Source: Sphingomonas albertensis
Lineage (GTDB): Bacteria > Pseudomonadota > Alphaproteobacteria > Sphingomonadales > Sphingomonadaceae
NCBI RefSeq assembly: GCF_014358075.1
Contig: NZ_JACONT010000001.1
Location: 186,001 to 250,000 of the forward strand
DNA length: 64,000 nt
Reading direction: 5' to 3'
Part shown: positions 19,990 to 33,207 of the stretch, one piece after another
How positions within the stretch are numbered: the first letter of the stretch is position 1
Layout of the letters: each line of letters opens with the position of its first letter
The notes under the pieces: model-generated
What the model was told of the DNA's origin: nothing
The model's input: the letters and a program-made list of their open reading frames with translations, nothing else
Databases searched by the model: none
Made by a program: the position numbers and the translations under genes

Positions 19990-21909
19990 CTATGTATAGA
20001 GCGCGGCGTCTGCCCAGATCGCAGGTTGCGGCGTCCCCGCATTTGCCGCTGCACCACTCCCCCGCGCTACCAGTTCCACGATCCGCACCCCCGCGACCCT
20101 CGCCTCCAGCGGCGCAGCGGCCTCGCCGAACCCCATCGGCCGCGACTTGGCGAGCAGGCGACCATCGCCCCAGACCTCGAACACGGTCGTGCCCGAGCGT
20201 GGCTGGCCGGAATCGTTGATGCCGACGTTGGCCGCGAACCGAGCGTAACCCTGGTTGCGGACTTCGAGGCGGGAGTTCGCCAGCACGCCGATCCCCGTGT
20301 CGAAGTCGGTGCCGGCCACCCGCAGTAACTTGCCATACGGCGCGCGGTCGGCTTCGGCGCCGCCCCAACCGCCATATTGCGGGTGTTCGCCGCCGCCCCG
20401 CGTGCCGGTCCACGGCGTGATCGACTGGTAAATCGTCGGATCGGGCTGCGGCACGACCACTCCGTCGGCGGCCGGATTGACGCGGCCGGTCTGCTCCGAG
20501 AGGTACAGCCCGCCCGGCAGGCGCCGCGTGCCGGTCGCGCGGAAGATCAGCGTTTCGTGTGGCGCGAGCGTCACCGCTACCTCCTTCCGAAAGCTCTGGT
20601 CCTTCTTCGTCCAGAGGTCCTTCAGGCGGACGTCGGCGGTCGGTAGCATCTTGAGTTGCTCGGCGGTGAGCACGGCCTTGGCGGGCGAGGCGGTACGGTT
20701 GAACAGCGCGACGCCCTTGCTGCCGTCGGCGAGCGTCTTGACGAAGGTCTGCACCTCGCCGGAATCATAGGCGAGCACCGCCTGGTTGCCGGCCGGATCC
20801 TGGTTCAGCGCGACGATGTCCGCATTGCCGAAGATCGCGAGCAGGTCCGGCGTCAGCTTGCGCAGGTCGTAGCCGATGATCAGCGGCGAATCGACCATCG
20901 CCCATAGCGAGAAGTGCGACCGCGCCTCGGTCAGATGCGCCGCGTCGAAATCGCCGGTGCCGACGAACAGCATGTCGGGGTCGTTCCACGATCCGGGATG
21001 CGCATAGAGCGCGCGGTGCGTGACGGTGTCGAGGTTGGTAAGCATCCGCGGCCAGACCGGCTGGATGTCGTCGCTGGTGCGCGAGGTATTGCCGACGTCC
21101 TTGCCCCAGGCGCGCACGTCGCCCGCGCCCCACAGGCACAGCGAATAGACATAGGGGCGGTCGCCGGCGTGCGTGTGCAGCGCGGTGTGGACCTGTTCGT
21201 AAAGGCCACGGATGCCCGCGACGTCCGATCCGCCGAGCGACTGCATGTCGACCAGCGGCGTCAGCGCGCGATAGAGTCCCGACTTCACGCGTGGTGCGTC
21301 CGCCGGAAGGCCGCGCGCGCCGCAGCCATCGACCTTAATGAAGTCGAAATTCCATTCGGCGAAGAACAGACGGATGTCCTGGTCGACATGACCGTATAGC
21401 CCGACTTCGCGCTCCGCGACGCTGCCCTCGGGCTGGTTCTTGAAATCGGGGGTGTAGATCTGGCCGCAGCTGTTGCGGCCGATGTCGGAATAGATGCCGG
21501 CCTTCAGCCCCATCGCGTGCAGCCGGTCGGTGAGCGGGCGGAAGCTGGTGTCCGCGCCGGTCGCGGCGGACGGGAAGTGGCTGGTGCGGATGAGCAACCG
21601 CCCGTCGGGCTGGCGGCGCTTGAGCCACCAGCCATCGTCGATGTTGACGTAGCGATAGCCGATGTCGCGCAGCTTGGTATCGACCAGCGCCTGTGCGGAG
21701 GCGAGCACCTTCTCCTCGTCGACGTCGCTGTTGAAGGCGTTCCACGAATTCCAGCCCATCGGCGGCACCGGCGCGGAGCCATCGGTGTTGGCGCTCCACT
21801 TGCCGGTTGGCGTCATCGGGTCGGCGGCGGCTGCTGTTGCGGCTGCGAGCGGACCGCACAAGGCGGCCAGCGCCACGCCGATCATCATCATCGATGGCAT
21901 ACGCTTCAC
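19990..21909 (-). CDS. GH27 alpha-galactosidase with C-terminal NPCBM domain, secreted
   Basis: 639-aa family 27 enzyme that releases alpha-D-galactose. Conserved PPMGWNSWN (50-58), YVNIDDGWW (88-95), nucleophile Asp194 in IKVDGCG and acid/base Asp281 in SRTSDDI. The last 140 residues (YGGWGG..., LANSRLEVRNQGYARF) form an NPCBM-type sugar-binding module. The GTG start overlaps the GH3 stop, has AAGGA eight bases before it and supplies the KR of the signal peptide. An ATG three codons later lacks a well-placed ribosome site. Last gene of the leftward five-gene run. Confidence 0.9.
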   Translation of the reverse strand: MKRMPSMMMIGVALAALCGPLAAATAAAADPMTPTGKWSANTDGSAPVPPMGWNSWNAFNSDVDEEKVLASAQALVDTKLRDIGYRYVNIDDGWWLKRRQPDGRLLIRTSHFPSAATGADTSFRPLTDRLHAMGLKAGIYSDIGRNSCGQIYTPDFKNQPEGSVAEREVGLYGHVDQDIRLFFAEWNFDFIKVDGCGARGLPADAPRVKSGLYRALTPLVDMQSLGGSDVAGIRGLYEQVHTALHTHAGDRPYVYSLCLWGAGDVRAWGKDVGNTSRTSDDIQPVWPRMLTNLDTVTHRALYAHPGSWNDPDMLFVGTGDFDAAHLTEARSHFSLWAMVDSPLIIGYDLRKLTPDLLAIFGNADIVALNQDPAGNQAVLAYDSGEVQTFVKTLADGSKGVALFNRTASPAKAVLTAEQLKMLPTADVRLKDLWTKKDQSFRKEVAVTLAPHETLIFRATGTRRLPGGLYLSEQTGRVNPAADGVVVPQPDPTIYQSITPWTGTRGGGEHPQYGGWGGAEADRAPYGKLLRVAGTDFDTGIGVLANSRLEVRNQGYARFAANVGINDSGQPRSGTTVFEVWGDGRLLAKSRPMGFGEAAAPLEARVAGVRIVELVARGSGAAANAGTPQPAIWADAALYT

Positions 21910-24578
21910 TTCGGTAATTCCTTCGACTGGCGGGCGGTGAAGCGCGCGGATTGGACCGGCGCGCCGGTTCCCGGCTGGCCCGAGCCCACGGTGACGCGGT
22001 AGCTGCCCGCCGCGACCGAGCGCGTGCCATCGACGGCCACCGAACTCAGATCGCGCGGCGACAGGTCGAAGGTGACGGTGCGCGTCTCGCCGGGACGCAG
22101 CGCGACACGCTGGAAGCCGCGCAGTGCGATCCGAGGCGTGCCGGGCCGATCGGGGAAGTTCAGGTAAAGTTGCGCCACCTCTTCGCCCGGCCGATCGCCC
22201 TGATTGGTCAGTCGCGTGGTGACGCGGATGCCGGCCTCGGCGCCGCCGCGTGCGGGAGTCACGGTCGGCGTCGTGTAGCCGAACCGCGTGTAGCTGAGCC
22301 CGTGGCCGAACGGATAGACCGGCGTGCCCGTAAAGTAGCGATAGGTGCGGCCGTTCATCGCGTAGTCGCCGAACGGCGGCTGGTCCGCGACGCTGCGGTA
22401 GAAGGTGAGCGGCAGGCGTCCCGACGGGTTGGTGCGTCCCGTGAGGATGTTGGCCGCGGCCGTGCCGCCGGTCTCGCCCGGATACCAAGCCTCCAGCACG
22501 GCGGCGGCGTTGTCCTTCGCCCAGGCGAGGTTGATCGGGCTGCCGTTCATCGCGACCAGCACGATCGGCTTGCCGCTGGCCTTGGCCTGTTCGAGCATCG
22601 CGATCTGGTCTGCGGGCAGGTCCAGCGTGGTCTTGTCGCCGCCCGAGAAGCCCGGCACCGTCACGCCGGTCTCCTCCGCTTCGAGATCGGAAGTGAGGCC
22701 GACGACCGCGACCAGCACGTCGGCGGCGGCCGCCGCGCGGCGAAGCTCGGCGGACGGCGCATCCGACACGCGCTTCCACACCAAGTCGATCCCGCTGCCC
22801 TCCGCGCGGATCGCATAACGTCTGCCGCCTTCGAGTTTCAGCGTCGTCATACCGGGGAGGTCGTTCCAGCGCGCCTTGCGTCGGTCGGAGATCATCCTGC
22901 CGTCGAGGGTGAGCGTACCGCCCGAACCCGACAGCCCGACGCGGTAGGTGCCGCTTTCGGGCGGCACCAGGAAGCCGGTCCATTCCGTGCGATGGACATC
23001 GGCCACGCGCGCCAGATCGAGGTTGCGGTCGCCGACGTCGGGCTCGATGCGGGTGACCACCGGCTGGGTCTGATACTTGGCCGCAGCGACCAGCTTCTCG
23101 CGCGTGCCGGGTGCGTATTGTGCGGGCATCGGCGTCGTCGGATTGAAATAGCGCGCGAGCAGGCCGGGCCTGCCGTCGGGGGTGAGCAAAGCGGAGGTCG
23201 GCACGCGGTCGCCGTCCGTGACGGACTCGCCGAACGGCACGAGCGTGACCTGGCTGGCACCGAGCGCGGTTTCCAGACCCTCCAGCACCGACACCGGCCG
23301 GCCCGACAGCGGCGACGAGTAATTGCCGCGCAGCACGCGCGTCGCATCGCCCAGCGGGCCGATCACGGCGAGCTTCACGCCGGGCTTGAGCGGCAGGATG
23401 CCGTCGTTCTTGAGCAGCACCATCGATCGCTCGGCCGCGGCCAGCGCCAGCCGGCGATGTTCCGGTGCCCCGACAACGCTGGTCGGTAGCGCCTTGGGTG
23501 CACCGGCAAGTCCGGGCAGATCGCCGGTCCGGTAGCGTGCGGCGAACAGGCGGATGAGGCTCCTGTCGACGTCCGCCTCGGTGATCAGGTCGCGGCTGAG
23601 CGCCTCGCGGTATCGGGTCTCCAGGCCCGCAGTATCGCCCAGCGTCTCGCCGTTGCACTCGTTGTCCACGCCCGCGCGCATCGCAGCGGCGACCGCGGCG
23701 GCGCTGTCGGGCGCGTATTTGTGATTGTCGGCGATGTCCTTCACCGCGTCGCAATCGGACACGACATAGCCCTTGAAGCCCCACGCCTCGCGCAGATGCT
23801 CCTTCAACAACAGGTCGCTGGCGCAGGCAGGCTGGCCGTCGATGCGGTTGTAGGCGCACATCACCGACGCCGCGCGTCCGTCGACCAAGGCGGCGCGGAA
23901 GGCGGGGAGGTAGGTGTCCTCCAGGTCGTGCGCGGACACGAAGACGTTGGCCGAATGCCGCGTGCCCTCGGGGCCACTGTGCACCGCGAAATGCTTCGGC
24001 GTGGCGATCACCCGCGGGCGATCGGGGTTGAGACCCTGCATCCCGCGGACGAAGGCGACGCCCATCGCCGCGGTCAGGAACGGATCCTCGCCATAGGTCT
24101 CTTGTCCGCGACCCCAGCGCGGATCGCGGAAGATGTTGATATTAGGCGACCAGGTGTCGAGCCCGGTGCCGATATGCCCGTTCCTGCCGGTCTCGCGACC
24201 AAGCGTATGCAGCCCGCGCACCTCCTCGCTGATCGCGCCCGCGACGTCGTGGACGATCGGACCGTCGAAGGTCGCGGCGAGGCCGATCGGCTCGGGGAAG
24301 TTGGTGGTTGCGAGCGGGCCGAGCGCGCCGTGCAGCGACTCGGTCCACCAGTTATACGCGGGAACGCCGAGCCGCGGGATGGCGGGAGCGACGTTGAGCA
24401 ACTGCGGCAGTTTCTCGTCGTGCGTCATCCGCGCGACGATGGCGCGGGCCATCTGCTCGGCGGGGTCGCTGGCGGTCTGCTGGCTCGGCGTGGCCGCTGG
24501 CTCGCGGGCGACCGCTGGCGAAAATGCGAGCGCGAGCCCGGCCGTCGCGAGCGCTCTCGCCGTCATGGTCCTGCGCAT
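21906..24578 (-). CDS. GH3 beta-xylosidase / beta-glucosidase with PA14 domain, secreted
   Basis: 890-aa family 3 glycosidase. Signal peptide MRRTMTARALATAG...AVA. The N-terminal barrel includes TPKHFAVHSGPE and nucleophile Asp275 in VVSDCDAV; the SDCDA form is common in beta-xylosidases. A PA14-like insert (about 480-620, WTGFLVPPESGTYRVGL) splits the C-terminal sandwich, followed by GDYAMNGRTYRYF and a fibronectin-III-like end. GGGGGA lies eight bases before the ATG. It lies 64 bases after the acetylesterase in the TonB-receptor operon. Confidence 0.92.
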   Translation of the reverse strand: MRRTMTARALATAGLALAFSPAVAREPAATPSQQTASDPAEQMARAIVARMTHDEKLPQLLNVAPAIPRLGVPAYNWWTESLHGALGPLATTNFPEPIGLAATFDGPIVHDVAGAISEEVRGLHTLGRETGRNGHIGTGLDTWSPNINIFRDPRWGRGQETYGEDPFLTAAMGVAFVRGMQGLNPDRPRVIATPKHFAVHSGPEGTRHSANVFVSAHDLEDTYLPAFRAALVDGRAASVMCAYNRIDGQPACASDLLLKEHLREAWGFKGYVVSDCDAVKDIADNHKYAPDSAAAVAAAMRAGVDNECNGETLGDTAGLETRYREALSRDLITEADVDRSLIRLFAARYRTGDLPGLAGAPKALPTSVVGAPEHRRLALAAAERSMVLLKNDGILPLKPGVKLAVIGPLGDATRVLRGNYSSPLSGRPVSVLEGLETALGASQVTLVPFGESVTDGDRVPTSALLTPDGRPGLLARYFNPTTPMPAQYAPGTREKLVAAAKYQTQPVVTRIEPDVGDRNLDLARVADVHRTEWTGFLVPPESGTYRVGLSGSGGTLTLDGRMISDRRKARWNDLPGMTTLKLEGGRRYAIRAEGSGIDLVWKRVSDAPSAELRRAAAAADVLVAVVGLTSDLEAEETGVTVPGFSGGDKTTLDLPADQIAMLEQAKASGKPIVLVAMNGSPINLAWAKDNAAAVLEAWYPGETGGTAAANILTGRTNPSGRLPLTFYRSVADQPPFGDYAMNGRTYRYFTGTPVYPFGHGLSYTRFGYTTPTVTPARGGAEAGIRVTTRLTNQGDRPGEEVAQLYLNFPDRPGTPRIALRGFQRVALRPGETRTVTFDLSPRDLSSVAVDGTRSVAAGSYRVTVGSGQPGTGAPVQSARFTARQSKELPK

Positions 24579-24642
24579 CGTCACTATCCCCCATTGCGGC
24601 ACGCGCAAGCGGCCGATTGTGTTCTTCGCGCCCGTTCGGGGC

Positions 24643-26595
24643 TTATCGACCCGGCGAGACCGGTACTTCGAACGTGCCGACCGGCAGCGGTGCGTCGTCC
24701 GCGAGGTTGGTCGCAGGCGCATCGGCCCAGGCGTAGCGGACGCGCGTGACCGGCTGACCGTCGCTCGGCAGGGTCACGGTCGAACCTGCAACCCGCCCGG
24801 CGGCGTAGCGGCAGGTGCCGACCGCAGGACCGCAAAGCTCGAAGCCGATCGCCTGCGCGGAACTGCGAGCGTGCAACGCGCCCGTGACGCCGCTGAACCG
24901 GACCGTGACGCTGCCATCCGGGTCACGCCGCGCATCGGCGACTGCCGGGCCGGAGGGAGCGATCTTCTCGCCGTACACCGCCGCGCGCATCACGCGGGCG
25001 AGCCTTTGCCCGACCTCGCGTTTTTCGCCGGGATGGATGTCGAGAGCATCGCCGAGATCGAGCGCGACGGCGATGCCGGCATGCGGGTCCGCTGCCGCGA
25101 CGCGTCGCTGTGCATCGCGGACGTCGCCCCAGCCGCTTTCGCTCGGCGCAATCGCCGGGCTGCCGTAATTGGCGAGCTGGACGATCGCGAAGCCGGTCTC
25201 GGGCGTGCCGAAACAGCGCCGCCAGTCGGCGATCAACGCCGTCATCCGGCGATCGTAACCGGGGATGCCGGTGTCGGACTCGCCCTGATACCAGGCCATG
25301 CCGGCGAACTTCGTGGCGCCGAGCGGCGCGATCATCGCGTTGTAGAGCGTGCCCGCGCCATTGATGTCGTCCCACGGCACGCGCGGTGCGGCGCCCGCCA
25401 GCCGCTTGGCGATCGCATAACGCCAGCCGGTGCCGAGCGGTACGCTGGTCCCATCGGCGAACGACAGCCGCATCGCATCCGCGGGGCCGGTCATTCCGCC
25501 ATAGGCGTAGACGTCGTCGTCGTTGACGGTGATGACGTTGCGCCCGGCTTTCAAACTGCCGGCGGGCAGCGCGTAGACGCGCGATTGCGAGGCGAGGCTG
25601 CTGCCGCCGACGCCCACGCCGTTGACCCAGGTGCGGTCCGCGTCGTCGACCATGCCCAGCACCAGCGTCGCAGGGCCGCGTGCCTGCTCGGCGGTCAGTC
25701 GGACCTCGTGCTGGTACCAGATCATGCCGTTGTAATTGGCGAGTTCTGGCACGCCCCATGTCTCGAAATTGGTCATCGCCGGCACCGGCTGCCAGTCGAG
25801 TGCGGCATCGGGCTGCCACGGTTCGCGGCCGGCGGCATCACCCGAGCCCGCGCGCCACCAGCTTTCCCAGATCGTCGATGCCTGTCGGTTGGCCGCGGCG
25901 GGATCGCGAGCATAAAGGGCGAGCAGGTCGGTGGGGTCGCCGAGCCCCGCCTGACGCAGCGCAGTATCGCTCATCCACGCGCTGATCCGTGATCCGCCCC
26001 AGCTCGAATGCACTGCGCCGATCGGTACGCCCGACGTGCGACGCAGCGCCTGGACCATGTAGAAGCACGCGGCGGAAAAGCTGGGCGCCGTGGTGGGGCC
26101 GGACACCGTCCATGCCGGCTGTTGGGCAAATCGCGCGACCGGTGCAGCGGCGGAGACCTTTTCGACGGTCAGCAGCCGGAGCTTGTCATCGACCTCCGGG
26201 TGCGCATCGGGAAACAGGCCTTGTCCCTGGTCGACGCGGAGTTCCATGTTGCTCTGGCCCGAACACAGGAACACGTCGCCGACCAGAATGTCGCGGAGGA
26301 CCGCCGCACCGCTCGGCGCGGCGATCGTCAGGTCGTAGGGACCGCCGGCGGGGAGGGCGGGCAGGCTCGCCGAAAACTTGCCATCGCGTCCTGCCTTGGC
26401 CGTGACGCTGCGGCCGGCGAGCGTGATCATCACCGTCTCGCCAGCCGCCGCCTGTCCGGTCAGGACGACGGGTTGGCCGCGCTGGATCACCGCGTGATCG
26501 CTCAGGATACCGTCGAGGCGCGGGGCCGCCGACGCTGCGGTCGCGCCGATGGTTAGGATCGCGCCGATGGCCAGGCACGCTGTGACGGTCCGCAT
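24643..26595 (-). CDS. SGNH-type sialate O-acetylesterase-like carbohydrate acetylesterase
   Basis: 650-aa exported SGNH-fold esterase of the sialate O-acetylesterase/DUF303 family. Signal peptide ends near ASA (23). Nucleophile Ser115 in CSGQSNMEL, WYQGESD further on, and DIHPGEK supplying the Asp/His pair. A galactose-binding-like beta domain is inserted in the middle (WYQHEVRL...DDADRTWVNG...). In plant-wall loci such proteins deacetylate hemicellulose rather than sialic acid. Placed 16 bases after the halogenase gene and 64 before GH3. Confidence 0.88.
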   Translation of the reverse strand: MRTVTACLAIGAILTIGATAASAAPRLDGILSDHAVIQRGQPVVLTGQAAAGETVMITLAGRSVTAKAGRDGKFSASLPALPAGGPYDLTIAAPSGAAVLRDILVGDVFLCSGQSNMELRVDQGQGLFPDAHPEVDDKLRLLTVEKVSAAAPVARFAQQPAWTVSGPTTAPSFSAACFYMVQALRRTSGVPIGAVHSSWGGSRISAWMSDTALRQAGLGDPTDLLALYARDPAAANRQASTIWESWWRAGSGDAAGREPWQPDAALDWQPVPAMTNFETWGVPELANYNGMIWYQHEVRLTAEQARGPATLVLGMVDDADRTWVNGVGVGGSSLASQSRVYALPAGSLKAGRNVITVNDDDVYAYGGMTGPADAMRLSFADGTSVPLGTGWRYAIAKRLAGAAPRVPWDDINGAGTLYNAMIAPLGATKFAGMAWYQGESDTGIPGYDRRMTALIADWRRCFGTPETGFAIVQLANYGSPAIAPSESGWGDVRDAQRRVAAADPHAGIAVALDLGDALDIHPGEKREVGQRLARVMRAAVYGEKIAPSGPAVADARRDPDGSVTVRFSGVTGALHARSSAQAIGFELCGPAVGTCRYAAGRVAGSTVTLPSDGQPVTRVRYAWADAPATNLADDAPLPVGTFEVPVSPGR

Positions 26596-26611: not shown

Positions 26612-28153
26612 CTAGATCGACTGAAGGCCGTGCCGCTTGATCTTGTCGATGAGATCGCGGTGGCCGGGCAGGCTGCTGACTAGTCGCTGCGTCTGCATCT
26701 GGTTGTCGTGTCGCGCACGCCGCGCCAGCGCGAGGTCGTCGTCGATCGTGCCCGGCATCACCGCAGTTCGCGCACCCATGCCGTACAGCACATATTGATA
26801 GCTGGCGGACGGGAAGACCTCCTCGGCGCGATCGAACTCGTCATGCACCCAGGGCGACTGGAAGCGCCACAATTCCATCAGGCCCATCAGGCGGTCGGGG
26901 ATCGTTTCCGGCCGCACATTGTCGCGCCAGAACTCCGTGTCGGTGCGCTTGGTCAGCGCATAATGCAGCTTGAGGAAGTCGATGATGCGGCCCCAGCGGT
27001 AGCTGGTCGTGTCGTTGAAGCGGCGCGCGACGACGTCCATCACCTCGCGGCAGGCCGGCATCTGTTCCGCGATCATCTTCGCCGACAGCTCGATCAGGAC
27101 GATCGCGGAGGCTTCGAGCGGTTCGAGGAACCCCGCGGCCAGCCCGACCGCGACGCAGTTGCGCGCCCAGAACTGCTCGCGGTGGCCGGCACGGATCGCC
27201 AGCCGGCGCGCAGTCAGGTCGCGCGCGGCCGGGCCGATATAGTCGCGCAGTTCCTGCTCGGCGGCATCCACGCTGATGTGACTGCTGGAGAAGACATGGC
27301 CGACCCCACGTCGTGTCGGCAGGCCGATGTCCCAGATCCAGCCCGCCGATTGCGCGGTCGAGATCGTATGGCTCGCGATCGGATCGTCGGGCAGATCATA
27401 GGGCACCTGCATCGCCAGCGCCGTGTCGCAGAACAGGACGTCGGTGCAACTGCGGAACGGCACTTTCATCGCGCCACCGATCAACAGCGCAGCAAAGCCC
27501 GTGCAGTCGACGAACAGGTCACCCGCGATCGAAACGCCCTGTTCGGCGTCGAGGCTGGCGATGTCGCCGCTCTCGTCGAGGCGGACCTCGGTGACGTCAG
27601 CCTTAACATGGCGGACGCCGAGCGTGTCGCAGCAATGCCGCTGGAGGAAATGCGAAAATTTGCCCGCGTCGAGGTGATAGGCGTAGTTCGCGTGGCCGTC
27701 ATATTCGGGCGTCGCGATCGTCTTGGGGCCGAGCCCTTCGTCGCAGATCCGGCCCTGCGGCGTGACCGTGTCGCAGAACGTCGTGCTGCCCTCGTCCGCG
27801 AGCCAGTGCGGCGCGAGGTTCACCTGCCCGAAGTGCTGCGGCAGCATCAGCGGATGGTAATAGCCGTCGTCCGAGGCGCCCGTGGTCCAGCGGTTGAACC
27901 GTGCGCCCTGCTTGAAGGACGCATCGCATTGCCGGAACAGTTCGGTCTCCGACACGCCCATCTTCTTGAGCGTCGAACGCAGCGTCGGCCATGTTCCTTC
28001 GCCGACGCCGATGGTCGGCACGTTGGGCGATTCGACCAGGGTCACGGTGAAGCCGTGCTGGCGACGGGCCTGATGCTTAGCCGCGATGACGCCCGCGGTC
28101 AGCCACCCCGCGGTGCCGCCGCCGACGATAACGATGTTCTGAATTTCGTGCAT
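26612..28153 (-). CDS. Flavin-dependent tryptophan halogenase-like protein
   Basis: 513-aa FAD-dependent halogenase homologue (PrnA/RebH family). FAD motif GGGTAG at 11-16; the catalytic lysine is present as Lys81 in ASFKQG; the conserved Glu is Glu347 in EPLEAS. The halogenase signature WxWxIP reads WIWDIG (272-277), with Gly in place of Pro. Homologues near TonB receptors in Xanthomonas and environmental clones have brominated indole in vitro (from memory), so activity on a small aromatic is possible. It sits between a TonB receptor (63 bases upstream) and an acetylesterase (16 bases downstream) in one leftward operon. Substrate and role unknown. Confidence 0.9.
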   Translation of the reverse strand: MHEIQNIVIVGGGTAGWLTAGVIAAKHQARRQHGFTVTLVESPNVPTIGVGEGTWPTLRSTLKKMGVSETELFRQCDASFKQGARFNRWTTGASDDGYYHPLMLPQHFGQVNLAPHWLADEGSTTFCDTVTPQGRICDEGLGPKTIATPEYDGHANYAYHLDAGKFSHFLQRHCCDTLGVRHVKADVTEVRLDESGDIASLDAEQGVSIAGDLFVDCTGFAALLIGGAMKVPFRSCTDVLFCDTALAMQVPYDLPDDPIASHTISTAQSAGWIWDIGLPTRRGVGHVFSSSHISVDAAEQELRDYIGPAARDLTARRLAIRAGHREQFWARNCVAVGLAAGFLEPLEASAIVLIELSAKMIAEQMPACREVMDVVARRFNDTTSYRWGRIIDFLKLHYALTKRTDTEFWRDNVRPETIPDRLMGLMELWRFQSPWVHDEFDRAEEVFPSASYQYVLYGMGARTAVMPGTIDDDLALARRARHDNQMQTQRLVSSLPGHRDLIDKIKRHGLQSI

Positions 28154-28216
28154 GGTGCAGCGTAATCGAAAAGAGGCGGAGCACGAACAAATCGTGCTCC
28201 GCCAGGGGGGAGAGGG

Positions 28217-31200
28217 TCAGAAGCGGTAGCGGATACCGGCCGTGTAGCGACGGCCGTAATCGAACACATCGAGCAGCTGGTTGTCGTAGCGCCCGTGCGT
28301 GCTCTGCTGGTTGTTGTTGATGTTCAGCGCCTCGCCGAACACGCTGAAGTGTTTGTTGATGTCGTAGCTCGTCGTCAGGTCGATCTGGAAGCTCTGGTTG
28401 ACGAAGGTCGGCTCGGCACCGAACGACCCGGTGTTCTGGTTCTGGCCGAACTGGAGCAGATACTTGTCGCGCCAGTTAAGCGCCGTGCGAAACTGGAACC
28501 CACCCTTGTCGTAGAAGCCGACGAAGTTCGCCGAGTTCGCCAGGCCCGTGACCGCGAAGCCGGTCTGCGAGATGTTCTTGTCGTCATAGGGCCGGTTGGT
28601 GTTCACGAACGTCGCATTGGCCTGGAAGCCGAAGCCGGTGTCGCCGAAGACCTGCTGCCAGGCGAGCTCGACGCCGCGTACGGTGGCGTCGGGTCCGTTG
28701 ACCTGCTGGGTGACCGCGAAGCTGGCGAGCTGGCCGGTTGTCGGATCGACGAGGCCGTTGATCGTCTGTCGCGTGACGCCGCCGACCACGAAGTTGCTGA
28801 CGTTCTTCAGGAAGAAGCCGACCGACAGGTACGAGTTCCGCTTATAGTACCATTCCGCCCCGATATCGAAATTGTCGGCGAGATAGGGCTTGAGGTCCGG
28901 GTTGCCGCCGCTTGCCGACAGGGCGCCGATGCGCTGGCCGTTGCCGACGTTGAGCACCGGGTTCAGCAGCGCGAGCGACGGACGGGTCAGCGTCCGCGAG
29001 GCATCGAACCTGAGGATCAGATTGTCCGTGAGTTCCAGCTTCGCATCCATGCTGGGCAGCAGGTACGAGTACGAACTGTTGCTCGTGACGCCCTGCACGT
29101 CGGTGTAGGTCGGGATGCTAAGCAGCGTCCGGTCCGCCGTGCTGGTCACCAGCGACGTCGGCAGGCGACCCTGTCCGGTCGAGACGAGGTTGGTGTTCTC
29201 GTTACGCACGCCGGCGTTGAACGTGAACGGCAGGCTGCCGATCTCGGTCTTGAAGTTGACGCTGAAATACAGCGACCACGTCCGCTCCCGGACCCGCAAG
29301 ATGCTGCCCGGATCGACCGCTTCGTCGAAGGTCCCGGTGAAGCCGGTCACGTTCCCGTAGTTGAAGCCCGGGACGTTCTGCGCCTGCGGGTTGCCCAGGC
29401 TGGTCAGATAGTTCTGGTAGGCGACCGGGCTGAACACGAACACCGATGGCGGCAGGCTGCCGTCGAACCCCGGGATGAAGTTATTGAGGCTGACCGAGCC
29501 CTGGTACAGGCTGCCCGGCAGGGGCGCGACGCCCGAGGTGCCGGCAGAGGGCGCACCGTAGCCGGCATAGGCCTGCCAGAAATTGTTCGTGAAGGTGCTG
29601 GTGTTCCGGAAGTTGAACGTGTCCTGATAGAATTGGCCGCCGGCCTTGATCGTCAGGTCGTCCTGTTTCCAGGTGGCATTGCCGCGGAACTGCATCAGTT
29701 CGTCGGTGTTGCGCTGCGTCTGGTTGACCGCGACGTGCGTGCCGATCAGCGACGTGTCCGCCCAGGCGGCGCTGTTGCCGGCCGGACCGAAGTTGCTGAT
29801 CGTCGGGAACGCACCGCTGCTGTTGCCGTCGACCGTGAACTGCAACGTGTTGCCCAGCGCACTGCCATAACCGATATCGCCGTTCTGGCTGCCGATGACG
29901 TTGCCCGGGTTCCGCCAGCTCTTCGCATAGGATCCGTCGGCCTCCAGCGTCAGATTGTCGGTCACGTCGTATTTGACGTTGAGGCCGGTCTGGTTGGTCT
30001 GCAGGATCTCGGTGTTGCGCGCCGCCGTGAAGTCGGTCGGCGTGCCGGCCTGCGTGAAGTCGACCGCGGTCCCGTTGCCGTCGAGCGTCACGTTGCGCAG
30101 GTCGCCCTGGTTGAACCAGACGCCGAACGCGTAATTGTTCTGGACGATTTCCTGGCGCGAGAAATTGTTGTCCAGCGTGATCATCAGGTCGTCGGTCGGA
30201 TGATATTGGAAGGCGACACGGGCGTCGACGCGCTCGTCCTTCACGCGCTGCTGCTCCGCGCCATATTGCTGCGGGAACCAGCCCGGGATGTTCTGGCGGT
30301 TGTTGGGGTTCGCGTACGCAGCCGATGCCGTATCGCTGGTCGGCGAGCACGCCCCGGCGCCGGCGTTCCCGGCCAGCTGGCACGGCGCGAAGTTACCGCC
30401 CGGCCAGCCGGACACGTACACGCGGTTGGTATCGGTATCACGCCGCGTATAGATGACGTCGGCCAGCACGCCGAACGTCTCGTCCGCGTTGGTATCGCTG
30501 ATCAGCAGGCCCGCGGTCGGCACGATCCTGCCGGCCCGCTCCTGGATCGAACCCGAGCCGGTGGCGGCGAGGCGGAAGCCGGGATGATCGAACGGCTTCG
30601 GGAACTGGATGTCCACCGTCGCACCGATCGAGCTCGACGACAGCGATACGTCCGGGGTCTTCAGCACGCTGAGCTGGCCGATGAAGTCGACGCCGACGGT
30701 GCTGAAATCGATCTGGCGACCACCGGTGGCGGTCGAGATACGACGACCGTCATACAGAGTGGTGTTGAAATCGCCGCCGAACCCGCGGACGGTGATGCCC
30801 GTGGGCTCGCCGCGCGAACCCGATCGCTGGATCGATACGCCGGGAAGGCGCTGCAAGGCGGCCGCGACGTTGGAATCGGGAAATTTGCCGATATCCTCGG
30901 CCGAAATGACATCCACCACGCCCGAGGACGTGCGCTTCAGATCGAGGTTGCGCTGCAACGAGCCGCGTAGCCCGGTGATGATGATCTCATCGCCTTCGCC
31001 GGCAGCGTTGCCCTGCGATGCGTCGGGAGCGGTTGCGGCGTCCTGGGGTTGCCCAGCCTGCACTGCGGTGATCGTGTTCGCGGTCGAGGGGACTGCGGGT
31101 TGCGGGGCGGTCGGCTGAACGGTCGTACTGTTCTGCAGACTAGCCTGGTCCTGCGCCAGAACAGGGATCGACCACATTAACGCCATCACGCTGGTAGCAC

Positions 31201-31264
31201 AAGCGAGCGTGTGCTTTGGCCGCGACAAGCTGTGAAGGCCCAAATCACGAAAATTCGTGGTCAT
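28217..31264 (-). CDS. TonB-dependent receptor (Xanthomonas/Caulobacter type)
   Basis: 1015-aa outer-membrane receptor expected to import oligosaccharides using TonB energy. Signal peptide ends near VLAQ (38). TonB box DEIIITG at 92-98, plug domain starting SLQRNLDLKR...DVISAEDIGKFPD, then a 22-strand barrel ending YTAGIRYRF. The plug wording is that of the large TonB-Xanth-Caul subfamily, often tied to plant-sugar loci. A GAGGGGAT ribosome site is ten bases upstream. First gene of the operon with halogenase, acetylesterase, GH3 and GH27, and divergent from SapC. Confidence 0.94.
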   Translation of the reverse strand: MTTNFRDLGLHSLSRPKHTLACATSVMALMWSIPVLAQDQASLQNSTTVQPTAPQPAVPSTANTITAVQAGQPQDAATAPDASQGNAAGEGDEIIITGLRGSLQRNLDLKRTSSGVVDVISAEDIGKFPDSNVAAALQRLPGVSIQRSGSRGEPTGITVRGFGGDFNTTLYDGRRISTATGGRQIDFSTVGVDFIGQLSVLKTPDVSLSSSSIGATVDIQFPKPFDHPGFRLAATGSGSIQERAGRIVPTAGLLISDTNADETFGVLADVIYTRRDTDTNRVYVSGWPGGNFAPCQLAGNAGAGACSPTSDTASAAYANPNNRQNIPGWFPQQYGAEQQRVKDERVDARVAFQYHPTDDLMITLDNNFSRQEIVQNNYAFGVWFNQGDLRNVTLDGNGTAVDFTQAGTPTDFTAARNTEILQTNQTGLNVKYDVTDNLTLEADGSYAKSWRNPGNVIGSQNGDIGYGSALGNTLQFTVDGNSSGAFPTISNFGPAGNSAAWADTSLIGTHVAVNQTQRNTDELMQFRGNATWKQDDLTIKAGGQFYQDTFNFRNTSTFTNNFWQAYAGYGAPSAGTSGVAPLPGSLYQGSVSLNNFIPGFDGSLPPSVFVFSPVAYQNYLTSLGNPQAQNVPGFNYGNVTGFTGTFDEAVDPGSILRVRERTWSLYFSVNFKTEIGSLPFTFNAGVRNENTNLVSTGQGRLPTSLVTSTADRTLLSIPTYTDVQGVTSNSSYSYLLPSMDAKLELTDNLILRFDASRTLTRPSLALLNPVLNVGNGQRIGALSASGGNPDLKPYLADNFDIGAEWYYKRNSYLSVGFFLKNVSNFVVGGVTRQTINGLVDPTTGQLASFAVTQQVNGPDATVRGVELAWQQVFGDTGFGFQANATFVNTNRPYDDKNISQTGFAVTGLANSANFVGFYDKGGFQFRTALNWRDKYLLQFGQNQNTGSFGAEPTFVNQSFQIDLTTSYDINKHFSVFGEALNINNNQQSTHGRYDNQLLDVFDYGRRYTAGIRYRF

Positions 31265-31375
31265 ATCCAGTCATCCCCTCATGCAACGTCGCTCCGCTCT
31301 TCTTGTGAGAAGCATGCGCGACCAAATTTCGTGATGGGCGAATCAGGCGCTCTACGAACCGTCCCGGCCATCACC

Positions 31376-31387
31376 GTTAGCGCTCAC
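31376..31387. promoter_or_regulatory. Putative LacI-type operator in the TonB / SapC divergent region
   Basis: GTTAGCGCTCAC is a near-perfect palindrome (10 of 12 positions pair) centred in the 243-base gap between the leftward TonB operon and the rightward SapC pair. Nine bases (GTTAGCGCT) recur in the GH9/carboxylesterase divergent region at 9608-9616 on the other strand. Confidence 0.5.
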
Positions 31388-31507
31388 ATAATACGCACAC
31401 GGTTTGTAGTTGCAAGCATTTGTATGAGTGATCGCGCCGCGCCTTTGCAACGGCGCCGCGCTGTGCGATCTGAGGAACAAAGACGATTACAGGATAGGGA
31501 GAAGACG

Positions 31508-32194
31508 ATGCCGGCCTGGGAAATGCTGAACCACGAACAGCATGCGTCGCTTCGCGTATCGCGGGCCTGTGATGGCCAGCGGCATTTTGCGCAGATCGTC
31601 GCGGACGAGTTTTTGCAGGCCGCGCCCTATTATCCCATCCTCTTCACCAAGCATCCGGAGACGGGTGCGTTCTATGCCGGGGTCGTGATGGGGCTGGAGC
31701 CGGGACAAAATTTGCTGACCAAGGAGGGCGTTCTGGCGGATTATCGTCCTGCCGATCTGGAGCGCCAGGGCTTCTACATCGCCGAGGGACAGTTGGTCGT
31801 GGATCGCGACCATCCGGTGTTCGTCGGGCCCGATGGCCAGCCGGTATTCAATATCGATGGAGAGGCAGCGCTACCATTGAAACGGGTCCAGCACGCGTTG
31901 CATATGTTGGAGACAGGTCTTCCCGAAACCGACGCGGTGATCGGACGCCTGCTTGAACACCGCCTGCTGGAACCGATCGACGTCTCCATGTCATTCGACG
32001 ACGGCGAGAGCCTGACGCTCGAGGGGCTGTACACGATCAGCCTCGATACTCTGCACGCGCTGCCCGACGCGGCCGCGCTCGACCTCTTCCACAGGGGGGA
32101 CCTGCAACTGGCCTATGCCCAGACGGGGTCGGTGCGCCATCTGCGGACGCTGGGACGTCGCCGGAACGACCGGCTGGCAGACATCGGCCGATGA
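31508..32194 (+). CDS. SapC family protein
   Basis: 228-aa protein matching the SapC family (HFAQIVADEFLQAAPYYPILFTKHPETGAF at the N-terminal half, then AQGFY-like RQGFYIAEG and VDRDHPVF). No signal peptide or membrane segment is visible, so it is probably cytoplasmic or peripheral. Despite the family name taken from a Campylobacter S-layer locus, function is unproven; members commonly sit next to TonB receptors, tryptophan halogenases and cupin-like genes. AGGGAGA lies six bases before the ATG. Its stop overlaps the following gene by four bases. Confidence 0.85.
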   Translation: MPAWEMLNHEQHASLRVSRACDGQRHFAQIVADEFLQAAPYYPILFTKHPETGAFYAGVVMGLEPGQNLLTKEGVLADYRPADLERQGFYIAEGQLVVDRDHPVFVGPDGQPVFNIDGEAALPLKRVQHALHMLETGLPETDAVIGRLLEHRLLEPIDVSMSFDDGESLTLEGLYTISLDTLHALPDAAALDLFHRGDLQLAYAQTGSVRHLRTLGRRRNDRLADIGR

Positions 32195-33207
32195 TCTACG
32201 AGCCGCCCGCGAGTGCTTTGCGCGATCCGGACCATTTCCGGACGATCGTCATGGAACGCGGAGAACCAGCGATCATGCGCGGCGCGGCGCGCGATTGGGC
32301 GATGCTGGCCGATCTTACGGCACCGGGCGAAAACCTGGCCGGGGTCGTCGACCAATTCCGGCGCTTCGACGCCGGGCGGCTGGCGGAGGTGTTCGTCGGC
32401 AAACCGGAGATCGCGGCGCGGTACAATTACGATGCGTCGATGGCCGGCTTCAATTTCGATCGGAGCATGATCCGGTTCGACGATGCGCTCACGCAGATCC
32501 TCGCTAGCGCGTCCGAGCCCGGGCGGCCCAGCATGTATATGGGGTCGCTGGCGGCGGAGACGTATTTCCCCGGCATCGAGGAGACGACCCCGCTGCCGTT
32601 CGTGCCGGTCGCCGTCCGTCCGCGGTTCTGGATCGGTCACGCATCGACGGTCGCCTGCCATTACGACACGATGGACAATGTGGCGTGCGTGGCGGTGGGT
32701 CGGCGTCGCTTCACGCTGTTTCCGCCCGATGCGATCGAGGATTTGTACGTCGGGCCGATCGACCACACGCTGGCCGGGCAACCGATAAGCCTCGCGGTCG
32801 GCAGCGAACCGGGCGATCCGCGGTACCCGAAGTTCGCGCAGGCGAGGGACCGGGCATTGGTCGTCGAACTCGATCCCGGCGACGCCCTCTATATCCCGAA
32901 GCTGTGGTGGCATCAGGTCGAGGCGCTCAGCGAGGTCAACGTGCTCGTCAATTTCTGGTGGGATGGTTTCGCGACAGGGCCCGACCAGCCATACACCGCG
33001 ATGCTGATGTCCATGCTCGCGATCGCCGAGCGGCCGCCTGCCGAGCGCGAGGCATGGCGCGCGTGGTTCGATCATTACGTGTTCCGCCCGGACGGCCACC
33101 CGCTGTCCTTCCTGCCCGTCGAGCAGCACGGCGTGCTCGGGGCACAATCGAAGGACAATTACGCGCGCATCCGCACGCTCGTCATGCGCCTATTGCGCGG
33201 CGGCTGA
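32191..33207 (+). CDS. Cupin-like (JmjC/FIH-type) Fe(II)/2-oxoglutarate dioxygenase
   Basis: 338-aa protein of the cupin_8/JmjC fold. The metal triad is intact: His157 and Asp159 in ACHYDT and His241 in LWWHQV. Flanking FTLFPPD and GDALYIP segments match FIH-type hydroxylases. Such enzymes hydroxylate protein or small-molecule targets with 2-oxoglutarate; the target here is not known. Translationally coupled to SapC and divergent from the TonB/halogenase operon, so the four genes likely form one functional set. Confidence 0.87.
   Translation: MIYEPPASALRDPDHFRTIVMERGEPAIMRGAARDWAMLADLTAPGENLAGVVDQFRRFDAGRLAEVFVGKPEIAARYNYDASMAGFNFDRSMIRFDDALTQILASASEPGRPSMYMGSLAAETYFPGIEETTPLPFVPVAVRPRFWIGHASTVACHYDTMDNVACVAVGRRRFTLFPPDAIEDLYVGPIDHTLAGQPISLAVGSEPGDPRYPKFAQARDRALVVELDPGDALYIPKLWWHQVEALSEVNVLVNFWWDGFATGPDQPYTAMLMSMLAIAERPPAEREAWRAWFDHYVFRPDGHPLSFLPVEQHGVLGAQSKDNYARIRTLVMRLLRGG

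Follow-up and report, generated by a model that had tools for sequence, protein, structure and literature searches.

A TonB-dependent receptor, a flavin-dependent halogenase, SapC and a Cupin_8 oxygenase form a conserved gene unit in Sphingomonas albertensis and its relatives that may modify the receptor

The 64,000-nucleotide stretch of the Sphingomonas albertensis genome analysed here (the window) contains a halogenase gene within a run of receptor and carbohydrate-active enzyme genes, and a divergent gene pair for SapC and a putative oxygenase beside it, which raises the question of what these enzymes contribute to a locus of sugar uptake. The genes of the locus are as follows:

28217..31264, minus strand: TonB-dependent receptor, TIGR01782 (TonB-Xanth-Caul), 1015 aa (NCBIfam 559 bits, cut-off 310)
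26612..28153, minus strand: flavin-dependent halogenase (FDH) of the 'FB' type, 513 aa (PF04820, 407 bits, cut-off 21, E 1e-121)
24643..26595, minus strand: SASA-type carbohydrate acetylesterase (PF03629, E 1.6e-19)
21906..24722 (start 24722 or 24566), minus strand: GH3 beta-xylosidase-like enzyme (PF00933/PF01915)
19990..21891, minus strand: GH27-type alpha-galactosidase-like enzyme with NPCBM domain (PF16499, PF08305; start as gene-called)
31508..32194, plus strand: SapC, 228 aa (PF07277, 165 bits, cut-off 28.9, E 2.4e-48, scored on the longer ORF)
32191..33207, plus strand: Cupin_8/JmjC Fe(II)/2OG-oxygenase-like protein, 338 aa (PF13621, 193 bits, E 1.4e-56)

The same-strand run from the receptor to the GH27 gene, as described in the original prediction, was confirmed with Pfam and NCBIfam, as was the divergent SapC/JmjC-cupin pair, which overlaps by four bases (32191-32194). 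The gaps of 63 bases (receptor-FDH) and 16 bases (FDH-esterase) were correct; a third gap, of 64 bases, was not reproduced, and the single overlap claimed for the run stands with the GH3 start at ATG 24722 (80 bases, with the esterase gene) and gives way to a 76-base gap with ATG 24566. Both Plug and barrel domains of the receptor were recognised by Pfam. The best NCBIfam model for the GH3 protein is Xyl3A, at 702 bits below the model cut-off of 1250. The longest SapC ORF starts at 31211 and would overlap the receptor start, with the Pfam domain beginning only about 315 bases further in; ATG 31508 is the likely start, giving a divergent region of 243 bases. Five proteins tested against PADLOC anti-phage defence models matched no family, and among phage protein families the FDHs alone have a match, to phrog_2928.

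The window FDH is assigned as a predicted flavin-dependent halogenase by its profile together with GxGxxG, Lys and Glu: it has GGGTAG at residue 11, Lys81, GWIWDIG at 271 and Glu344. Lys81 and Glu344 are presumably the catalytic residues, and this Lys and Glu are kept in 294 of 303 rows, in which some genes were read twice. At the position of WxWxIP, an FDH motif, the window protein reads GWIWDIGLP, with Gly for Pro, and four type-A rows read WxWRIP. Its closest solved relative is 2pyx (533 bits, with BrvH at 266 and Xcc4156 at 234), by which measure it does not fit the BrvH/Xcc4156 type; a type-A FDH encoded elsewhere in this genome, in the unit on C4, does, with Xcc4156 (6y1w) at 675 bits followed by 9luq at 545 and BrvH (6frl) at 453. 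The QhpG equivalog model scored 40.5 bits (cut-off 240) and the GoxB model 19.9 (cut-off 400), both too low for assignment. According to the sections of PMC5945002 and PMC7336383 drawn on here, Xcc4156 and BrvH have an open substrate site, are inactive on free tryptophan and have no known native substrate; free indole is halogenated by both in vitro, peptides have been suggested as substrates, and brvH has another halogenase gene upstream of it.

By profile and HxD...H metal triad, the Cupin_8 protein is a predicted Fe(II)/2-oxoglutarate JmjC oxygenase, with residues His157, Asp159, Arg172 and His241, and these His, Asp, Arg172 and His positions are kept in 147 of 147 rows. Its closest solved relatives are FIH and JMJD5, with which the catalytic core can be aligned and which are protein hydroxylases. 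Both enzyme types thus appear to be conserved as active. SapC has, to our knowledge, no known function; an AlphaFold2 prediction gave a confident fold (pLDDT 95.2, pTM 0.89), for which neither the PDB (E <= 0.001 or VIA Z >= 2) nor a viral structure library yielded a match.

The S. albertensis genome (4.05 Mb) was examined for further copies, and FDH genes were found in 8 places, SapC in 4 and Cupin_8 in 3. All three Cupin_8 genes adjoin SapC, an FDH and a TIGR01782 receptor; one of the four SapC genes, of a longer type, has no FDH, Cupin_8 or receptor on its 12.8 kb contig (C59). The co-occurrence count that the original prediction had proposed was then run across relatives. PF04820, PF07277 and PF13621 proved to be conservedly linked to TonB-Xanth-Caul receptors, so that the lack of linkage which the prediction had named as a refutation was not observed. 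All 68 named loci retrieved through receptor-linked SapC sequences contain a receptor (in two of them in pieces), and 66 contain all four genes. Counted from the receptor, 64 of 81 clade relatives have all three partners and 9 have none nearby, where gene content was called up to 6.5 kb from the receptor and contig ends may read as absence. Two of the searches scored at most five and at most two candidates per genome, which makes the counts from these two lower bounds, and the genome sets compared may hold the same species twice; 8 of 49 new rows of the later search are left out, as are L110 and L118 (truncated or broken receptor) from the receptor counts and the FDHs of G016 (L165) and L154, overlooked by the gene caller, from the FDH-centred count, and the genes of L085 (low G+C), likewise overlooked, were taken from a six-frame reading.

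The commonest gene order is receptor-FDH-SapC-Cupin_8-FDH, and the enzyme genes mostly overlap (SapC/Cupin_8 in 58 of 67 junctions, Cupin_8/FDH in 45 of 55, FDH/SapC in 29 of 50), with median gaps of -1, -8 and -4 bases that leave no room between these genes for a precursor peptide gene as in RiPP halogenase systems; the spacing is wider between receptor and FDH, with a median of 105 bases, and in the 243-base divergent region of the window. The SapC-linked receptors, including that of the window, form one clade in the tree (support 1.0), and the unit tracks this clade in alpha- as well as gammaproteobacteria and in loci devoted to different sugars. The evidence is strong that linkage of the four genes exceeds chance and that they constitute one conserved gene unit, on which no paper was found in the literature searched. 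The linkage points to a shared process and leaves the substrate unspecified. The region between the receptor and SapC genes contains one further feature:

31376..31387, plus strand: operator-like palindrome GTTAGCGCTCAC, between the divergent receptor and SapC genes

The palindrome core TAGCGCTC is invariant in 11 of 11 orthologous divergent regions, and the full pattern, which was picked after the site had been seen, recurs among other loci in L060 only and is expected by chance, with one mismatch, in 53 of 100 shuffled windows. Conservation of such a core in the region that the two directions share would speak against unrelated promoters.

The occurrence of so tight a unit with a sugar-uptake receptor in many bacteria that use plant or algal sugars suggests that its enzymes chemically modify the receptor. 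That the locus contains a protein-modification module dedicated to the receptor is judged to have a little under an even chance of being right; it is supported by the conserved linkage and the overlapping junctions, by the retained catalytic residues of both enzyme types, by the differing sugar loci of the copies and, by analogy, by the closeness of the type-A FDH to Xcc4156/BrvH and of Cupin_8 to the protein hydroxylases FIH/JMJD5 and by known halogenase-fold flavoenzymes that act on Trp of proteins or peptides. Separate FDH copies stand beside separate receptors, and a small-molecule enzyme could presumably serve from one copy. Against a receptor-dedicated module, the nine clade receptors without partners nearby evidently work. 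Of the options raised in the original prediction, that of a modified uptake-system protein is favoured here, by inference. In the mechanism proposed, the sugar would relieve a repressor and lead to joint synthesis of the proteins of the unit. While still in the cytoplasm, the nascent receptor, or a protein that closely partners it, would be halogenated on an indole side chain by the FDH, with bromide or chloride and FADH2, and hydroxylated on a side chain by Cupin_8, SapC possibly acting as adaptor or holdase. The modified receptor would then be exported, and the altered residues might adjust how it binds ligand, how it gates or how well it withstands attack. The candidate acceptor residues are Trp383, at the end of a barrel strand and probably on the extracellular side, and Asp186 in the plug:

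30116..30118, minus strand: receptor Trp383 codon (GVWFNQGD), a weakly indicated candidate halogenation site
30707..30709, minus strand: receptor Asp186 codon (plug domain, RQIDFS), a weakly indicated candidate hydroxylation site

In the first 119 receptors, position 383 is Trp in 109 of 111 FDH-linked versus 3 of 8 FDH-less receptors, ranking first of 110 conserved columns, and tree simulation reproduced the pattern in 3 of 20,000 runs, or in 3 of 8,279 when the runs are restricted to those with comparable numbers of losses. A fresh test with 40 phylum-sample loci (41 receptors) failed, Trp being found in 6 of 6 FDH-less and 34 of 35 FDH-linked receptors (one has Tyr), and Trp383 as a residue kept only with FDH was accordingly downgraded to a candidate. 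Combined, Trp is present in 143 of the 146 clade receptors linked to an FDH and in 9 of the 14 that are not (simulation, 12 of 10,000, or 12 of 3,817 under the same restriction). In two genomes that lack FDH altogether, Tyr or Phe takes its place (G274/L201, G206/L234); as counterexamples, G288 has no genomic FDH and keeps Trp383, and G308 has 12 FDH places and Tyr. Position 186 is Asp in 136 of 143 Cupin_8-linked versus 6 of 16 Cupin_8-less receptors, this count and the scans of 50 and 36 columns described next leaving out L101 (contig ends).

It is rather probable that both Trp383 and Asp186 have an ordinary role in ligand binding or structure in this clade and that their patchy association with FDH and Cupin_8 reflects shared ancestry, a view compatible with a receptor-modifying module and favoured by the grouping of the linked receptors in one clade with many clade-specific residues, as well as by the failed Trp test. 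The tree simulations speak against it, with p 0.0006 for D186/Cupin_8 (rank 1 of 50 columns, uncorrected; marginal after correction) and p 0.0043 for W383/FDH (rank 3 of 36 columns, uncorrected; not significant after correction), and P453 and G508 score about as well in the column test. Both residues are weak candidates for acceptors on the receptor. A receptor motif scan, confounded by the shared ancestry of the linked receptors, compared 28 linked receptors, left from 76 after thinning at 75% identity, with 22 FDH-only and 18 other own-genome receptors; one of the 18, L018 (= L229), is in truth a member of the linked clade without partners. The Trp motif is absent in all 22 FDH-only receptors, so their FDHs would need another target. 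The scan also suggested the Asn of WFN as the Cupin_8 target; this was rejected on the strength of seven close relatives (L053-L058 and L061, the Cupin_8 of L061 being split) that read WFS and still have Cupin_8, gene content here being called 3.5 kb beyond receptor and SapC.

An unlikely alternative to modification of the receptor is that FDH and oxygenase act during sugar supply on a diffusible indole, phenol or sugar-linked aromatic, made or taken up, to give a signal, an antibiotic or a detoxified compound. Most PF04820 enzymes whose function is known have small-molecule substrates, and the activity of BrvH and Xcc4156 on free indole in vitro, together with the existence of FDH-only loci without SapC or Cupin_8, would fit this alternative. 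However, no biosynthetic or export genes recur among the scanned neighbours, each receptor locus has its own FDH copy, and what the loci share is a receptor rather than an aromatic. Among the copies scanned, the unit, or FDH alone, adjoins GH16/LacI/MFS, GH67/GH3, GH1, alpha-amylase/GH31, trehalase and glucoamylase genes, across which no shared aromatic would be expected; LacI and MFS genes flank other copies of the unit, and no sugar transporter or LacI was found among the scanned part of the window genes. The differing sugar loci argue against the suggestion that a plant aromatic released with hemicellulose is halogenated, which found no support.

It is quite improbable that the modified protein is a different one encoded at or partnering the locus, such as a secreted glycoside hydrolase, a TonB partner or SapC itself; the same operon logic would apply, and SapC is found in 70 of 81 clade-receptor loci, but the hydrolases vary by locus while the receptor clade is constant, and the SapC family is widespread (31 of 142 class genomes, by presence count alone). 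Least probable of all is that co-regulated but separate genes were caught in sugar loci, the FDH being a flavin-dependent oxidase or a hypohalite source in stress defence, for which it counts that hypohalous acid is an FDH intermediate. Against it, family and phylum samples alike retain the gene order and the overlaps, and a stress enzyme need presumably not recur beside each receptor.

Should the receptor be modified as proposed, three puzzles, namely the substrate of BrvH/Xcc-type FDHs, the function of SapC and the substrate of an FIH-like oxygenase, would converge on one receptor unit, which offers a testable answer on the role of orphan halogenases. The wider proposal, doubtful at present, is that outer-membrane nutrient receptors are halogenated on Trp and hydroxylated on a side chain before export by co-encoded enzymes, and that this is the native job of the BrvH/Xcc orphan halogenases and of receptor-linked SapC. 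If true, TonB receptors would carry a post-translational code, and nutrient uptake, possibly phage or bacteriocin entry as well, would be subject to a newly recognised level of control.

Among known systems, the CUT loci of Xanthomonas and Caulobacter likewise have a TonB receptor beside carbohydrate-active enzymes, and both features are present among the part of the window genes scanned, whereas the inner-membrane sugar transporter and the regulator of a full CUT locus were not found among them; halogenase and SapC do not occur in the main text of the CUT paper (PMC1790865), and the unit in the window adds three non-carbohydrate genes. The Xanthomonas XyGUL, in the portion of PMC8245568 used, combines GH95 fucosidase, acetylesterase, GH enzymes and TonB receptors, all of which the window has; that portion does not contain the word halogenase, and the window has no GH74, GH31 or GH35 among the genes scanned. 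BrvH and Xcc4156 resemble the type-A FDH of the unit, whereas the window FDH is of the other type (FB), nearest to 2pyx, and TonB does not occur in the main text of either paper (PMC5945002, PMC7336383). QhpG, a halogenase-fold flavoenzyme acting on protein Trp (PMC7876137, in part), GoxB and LodB, and the peptide halogenases MibH and SrpI (PMC10286304, in part) are of related fold or family and have Trp of a ribosomal peptide or protein as their target; unlike QhpG- and MibH-type systems, the unit has no quinoprotein or recognised precursor gene. FIH, JMJD5 and JMJD7 have the HxD...H triad in common with Cupin_8, which, unlike them, is bacterial and lies in an operon with a halogenase.

The window contains a TonB receptor of the TIGR01782 family together with a flavin-dependent halogenase (FDH, PF04820), SapC (PF07277) and a JmjC-like Cupin_8 protein (PF13621), laid out as follows:

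28217-31264, minus strand: TIGR01782 TonB receptor
26612-28153, minus strand: PF04820 halogenase (type FB), directly after the receptor
minus strand, downstream of the halogenase in this order: SASA-type esterase, GH3, GH27
31508-32194, plus strand, divergent from the receptor: SapC
32191-33207, plus strand, divergent from the receptor: Cupin_8 protein, overlapping SapC by 4 bases

The linkage of PF04820, PF07277 and PF13621 genes with TonB-Xanth-Caul receptors, as anticipated in the original prediction, is real, strongly conserved and beyond chance. A search with three receptor-linked SapC sequences, which favours that SapC subtype, returned 68 named loci, chiefly from Sphingomonadales and also from groups such as Lysobacterales, Colwellia and Brevundimonas. 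A receptor of the unit type is present in every one of the 68 (truncated by the contig edge in L110, fragmented in L118), and 66 have receptor, FDH, SapC and Cupin_8 together; the exceptions are L101, at a contig end, and L117 of Sphingomonas pituitosa, where no FDH was found in the stretch examined. A profile of the receptor clade (A6, membership at E <= 1e-180) identified members in at least 32 of 149 family genomes and at least 36 of 398 phylum genomes, these being lower bounds with few candidates scored per genome. Among 81 clade receptors with surroundings examined, SapC is beside 70, Cupin_8 beside 68 and FDH beside 68, with all three partners at 64 and none at 9. The gene caller detected 72 FDH genes in the window genome and in related ones: 62 lie no more than 5 kb from a TonB receptor (30 of these no more than 500 bases away), 3 lie 5-10 kb from one, and for 7, of which three are at contig ends, no receptor is within reach; the chance level for a random gene is about 12%, estimated from 38 receptor matches in the 4.05 Mb S. 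albertensis genome. The receptors near FDHs include families besides TIGR01782. At L136:5793-8819, an FDH adjoins a non-TIGR01782 receptor with CarboxypepD_reg and OMP_b-brl_4 domains, plus a putative glucoamylase gene.

Gene order was tallied in 159 annotated receptor-bearing loci (L110 excluded; the sets may have species in common). The commonest order is receptor-FB-SapC-Cupin_8-FA (66 loci), FA being a type-A FDH; 34 loci have receptor-SapC-Cupin_8-FA, and 19 are divergent as in the window, with FB as the only FDH. Overlaps in the SapC-found set occur at 58/67 SapC/Cupin_8, 45/55 Cupin_8/FDH and 29/50 FDH/SapC junctions, and at none of 60 receptor/FDH junctions (median gap 105 bases). The divergent form has an operator-like palindrome; its core, TAGCGCTC, is unchanged in 11/11 orthologues, although the palindrome as a whole is not invariant. 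LacI-type regulators and MFS sugar carriers adjoin other copies of the unit.

By profile search, the S. albertensis genome has 8 PF04820, 4 PF07277 and 3 PF13621 places, as well as 21 TIGR01782 receptors above the cut-off. All three Cupin_8 genes belong to receptor/SapC/FDH units, in the window and on two other contigs:

contig C4: receptor-FDH-SapC-Cupin_8-FDH
contig C10: receptor-SapC-Cupin_8-FDH

Two more FDHs occur together at a locus that also has GH31, two alpha-amylases and a receptor, and another two lie where contig C47 ends. The remaining SapC, a longer form of 261 aa (L051:6006-6791), is on the 12.8 kb contig C59, which carries none of the other three genes of the unit (receptor, FDH, Cupin_8); within the class, 31 of 142 genomes match the SapC model, and thus SapC may have a role beyond receptor units.

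The receptors linked to the unit form one clade (support 1.0), and the sugar genes around them differ: GH27/GH3/GH43/GH95 in the window, GH16, GH3, GH67 and GH1 at the other copies scanned, and alpha-amylases, GH31, trehalase and glucoamylase at the FDH-only loci scanned. The unit tracks one receptor clade and not one sugar, which fits an enzyme set acting either on the receptor or on some constant partner better than halogenation of a plant aromatic released with hemicellulose, one of the two targets first suggested. The halogenase would then halogenate the receptor, the enzyme set would also bring about receptor hydroxylation, and SapC might be an adaptor.

Two receptor residues are candidates only as acceptors. 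Trp383 ends a barrel strand in the window-receptor model (mean pLDDT 72.9), where the lengths of strands and turns place it probably on the outer side. It tracked FDH presence in the first data set, but this was not repeated in later phylum loci, where Trp is kept in 6/6 FDH-less receptors; pooled, Trp is present in 143/146 FDH-linked versus 9/14 FDH-less receptors. The equivalent Trp is absent from 22 FDH-only receptors and from 18 own-genome receptors treated as unlinked. Genomes without any FDH have Tyr (G274) or Phe (G206), yet Trp in G288, and G308, with 12 FDH places, has Tyr. A column scan with tree simulation put Asp186 at rank 1/50 for Cupin_8 (uncorrected p 0.0006) and Trp383 at rank 3/36 for FDH (uncorrected p 0.0043); P453 and G508 were among other columns that scored nearby.

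The Cupin_8 protein can be aligned with FIH and JMJD5, and its metal triad is conserved in 147/147 rows. Cupin_8 genes directly beside an FDH, with no SapC found in the stretch (L127:5811-6815, L148:6144-7148, L158:11435-12472), indicate that FDH/Cupin_8 pairing is possible without SapC. The receptor-linked SapC of S. albertensis is 93% identical to one from Sphingomonas sp. UV9; its predicted fold is confident (pLDDT 95.2) and had no match in PDB or viral structure searches, a missing match not being proof of a new fold.

The window FDH retains the FAD motif, Lys81 and Glu344, and its closest structure is 2pyx, deposited as a tryptophan halogenase. The best relative of the type-A FDH is Xcc4156, followed by 9luq and BrvH. 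Xcc4156 and BrvH are reported to act on indole and not on free tryptophan and to have an open substrate site; no native substrate was known for them, and peptides were suggested (PMC5945002, PMC7336383). Catalytic Lys and Glu are present in 294/303 FDH rows (some genes read twice); of the other nine, one is cut by a locus edge, one has Glu replaced by Asp, and 7 are middle FDHs of tandem operons, which occur beside a non-clade TonB receptor in 7 related genomes:

L120:7268-11692, tandem FDH operon
L127:8341-12939, tandem FDH operon
L135:7894-12208, tandem FDH operon
L143:7795-12205, tandem FDH operon
L148:8668-13264, tandem FDH operon
L157:7533-12012, tandem FDH operon
L163:7581-12039, tandem FDH operon

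By alignment, the middle FDH, a pseudo-halogenase retained between two intact FDHs, has Arg, Cys or Ser for the catalytic Lys in 7/7, and its mean identity across loci is 33%, versus 54% and 52% for the flanking copies. Both the window FDH (311 bits) and a type-A FDH (314 bits) match the phage halogenase family phrog_2928, and TonB receptors commonly serve as phage receptors, which makes a phage link conceivable. One study attributes halogenase transcripts to Pelagibacter phages, cyanobacterial phages and Colwellia (PMC11337851).

The unit is undescribed in the full-text literature searched, which leaves most subscription papers outside its coverage, and none of the matches listed for a broader query mentions a halogenase. 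Certain annotation systems treat SapC-like, cupin-like and halogenase genes close to TonB receptors as a group. The locus is of a known type, a carbohydrate-uptake receptor locus, carrying an enzyme set that is unusual there and testable. With three GH43 genes, one GH9-like gene, GH95 and esterases flanking it, the surroundings in the window, taken together, look like a xyloglucan-type locus, for which the Xanthomonas xyloglucan locus (PMC8245568) provides the comparison.
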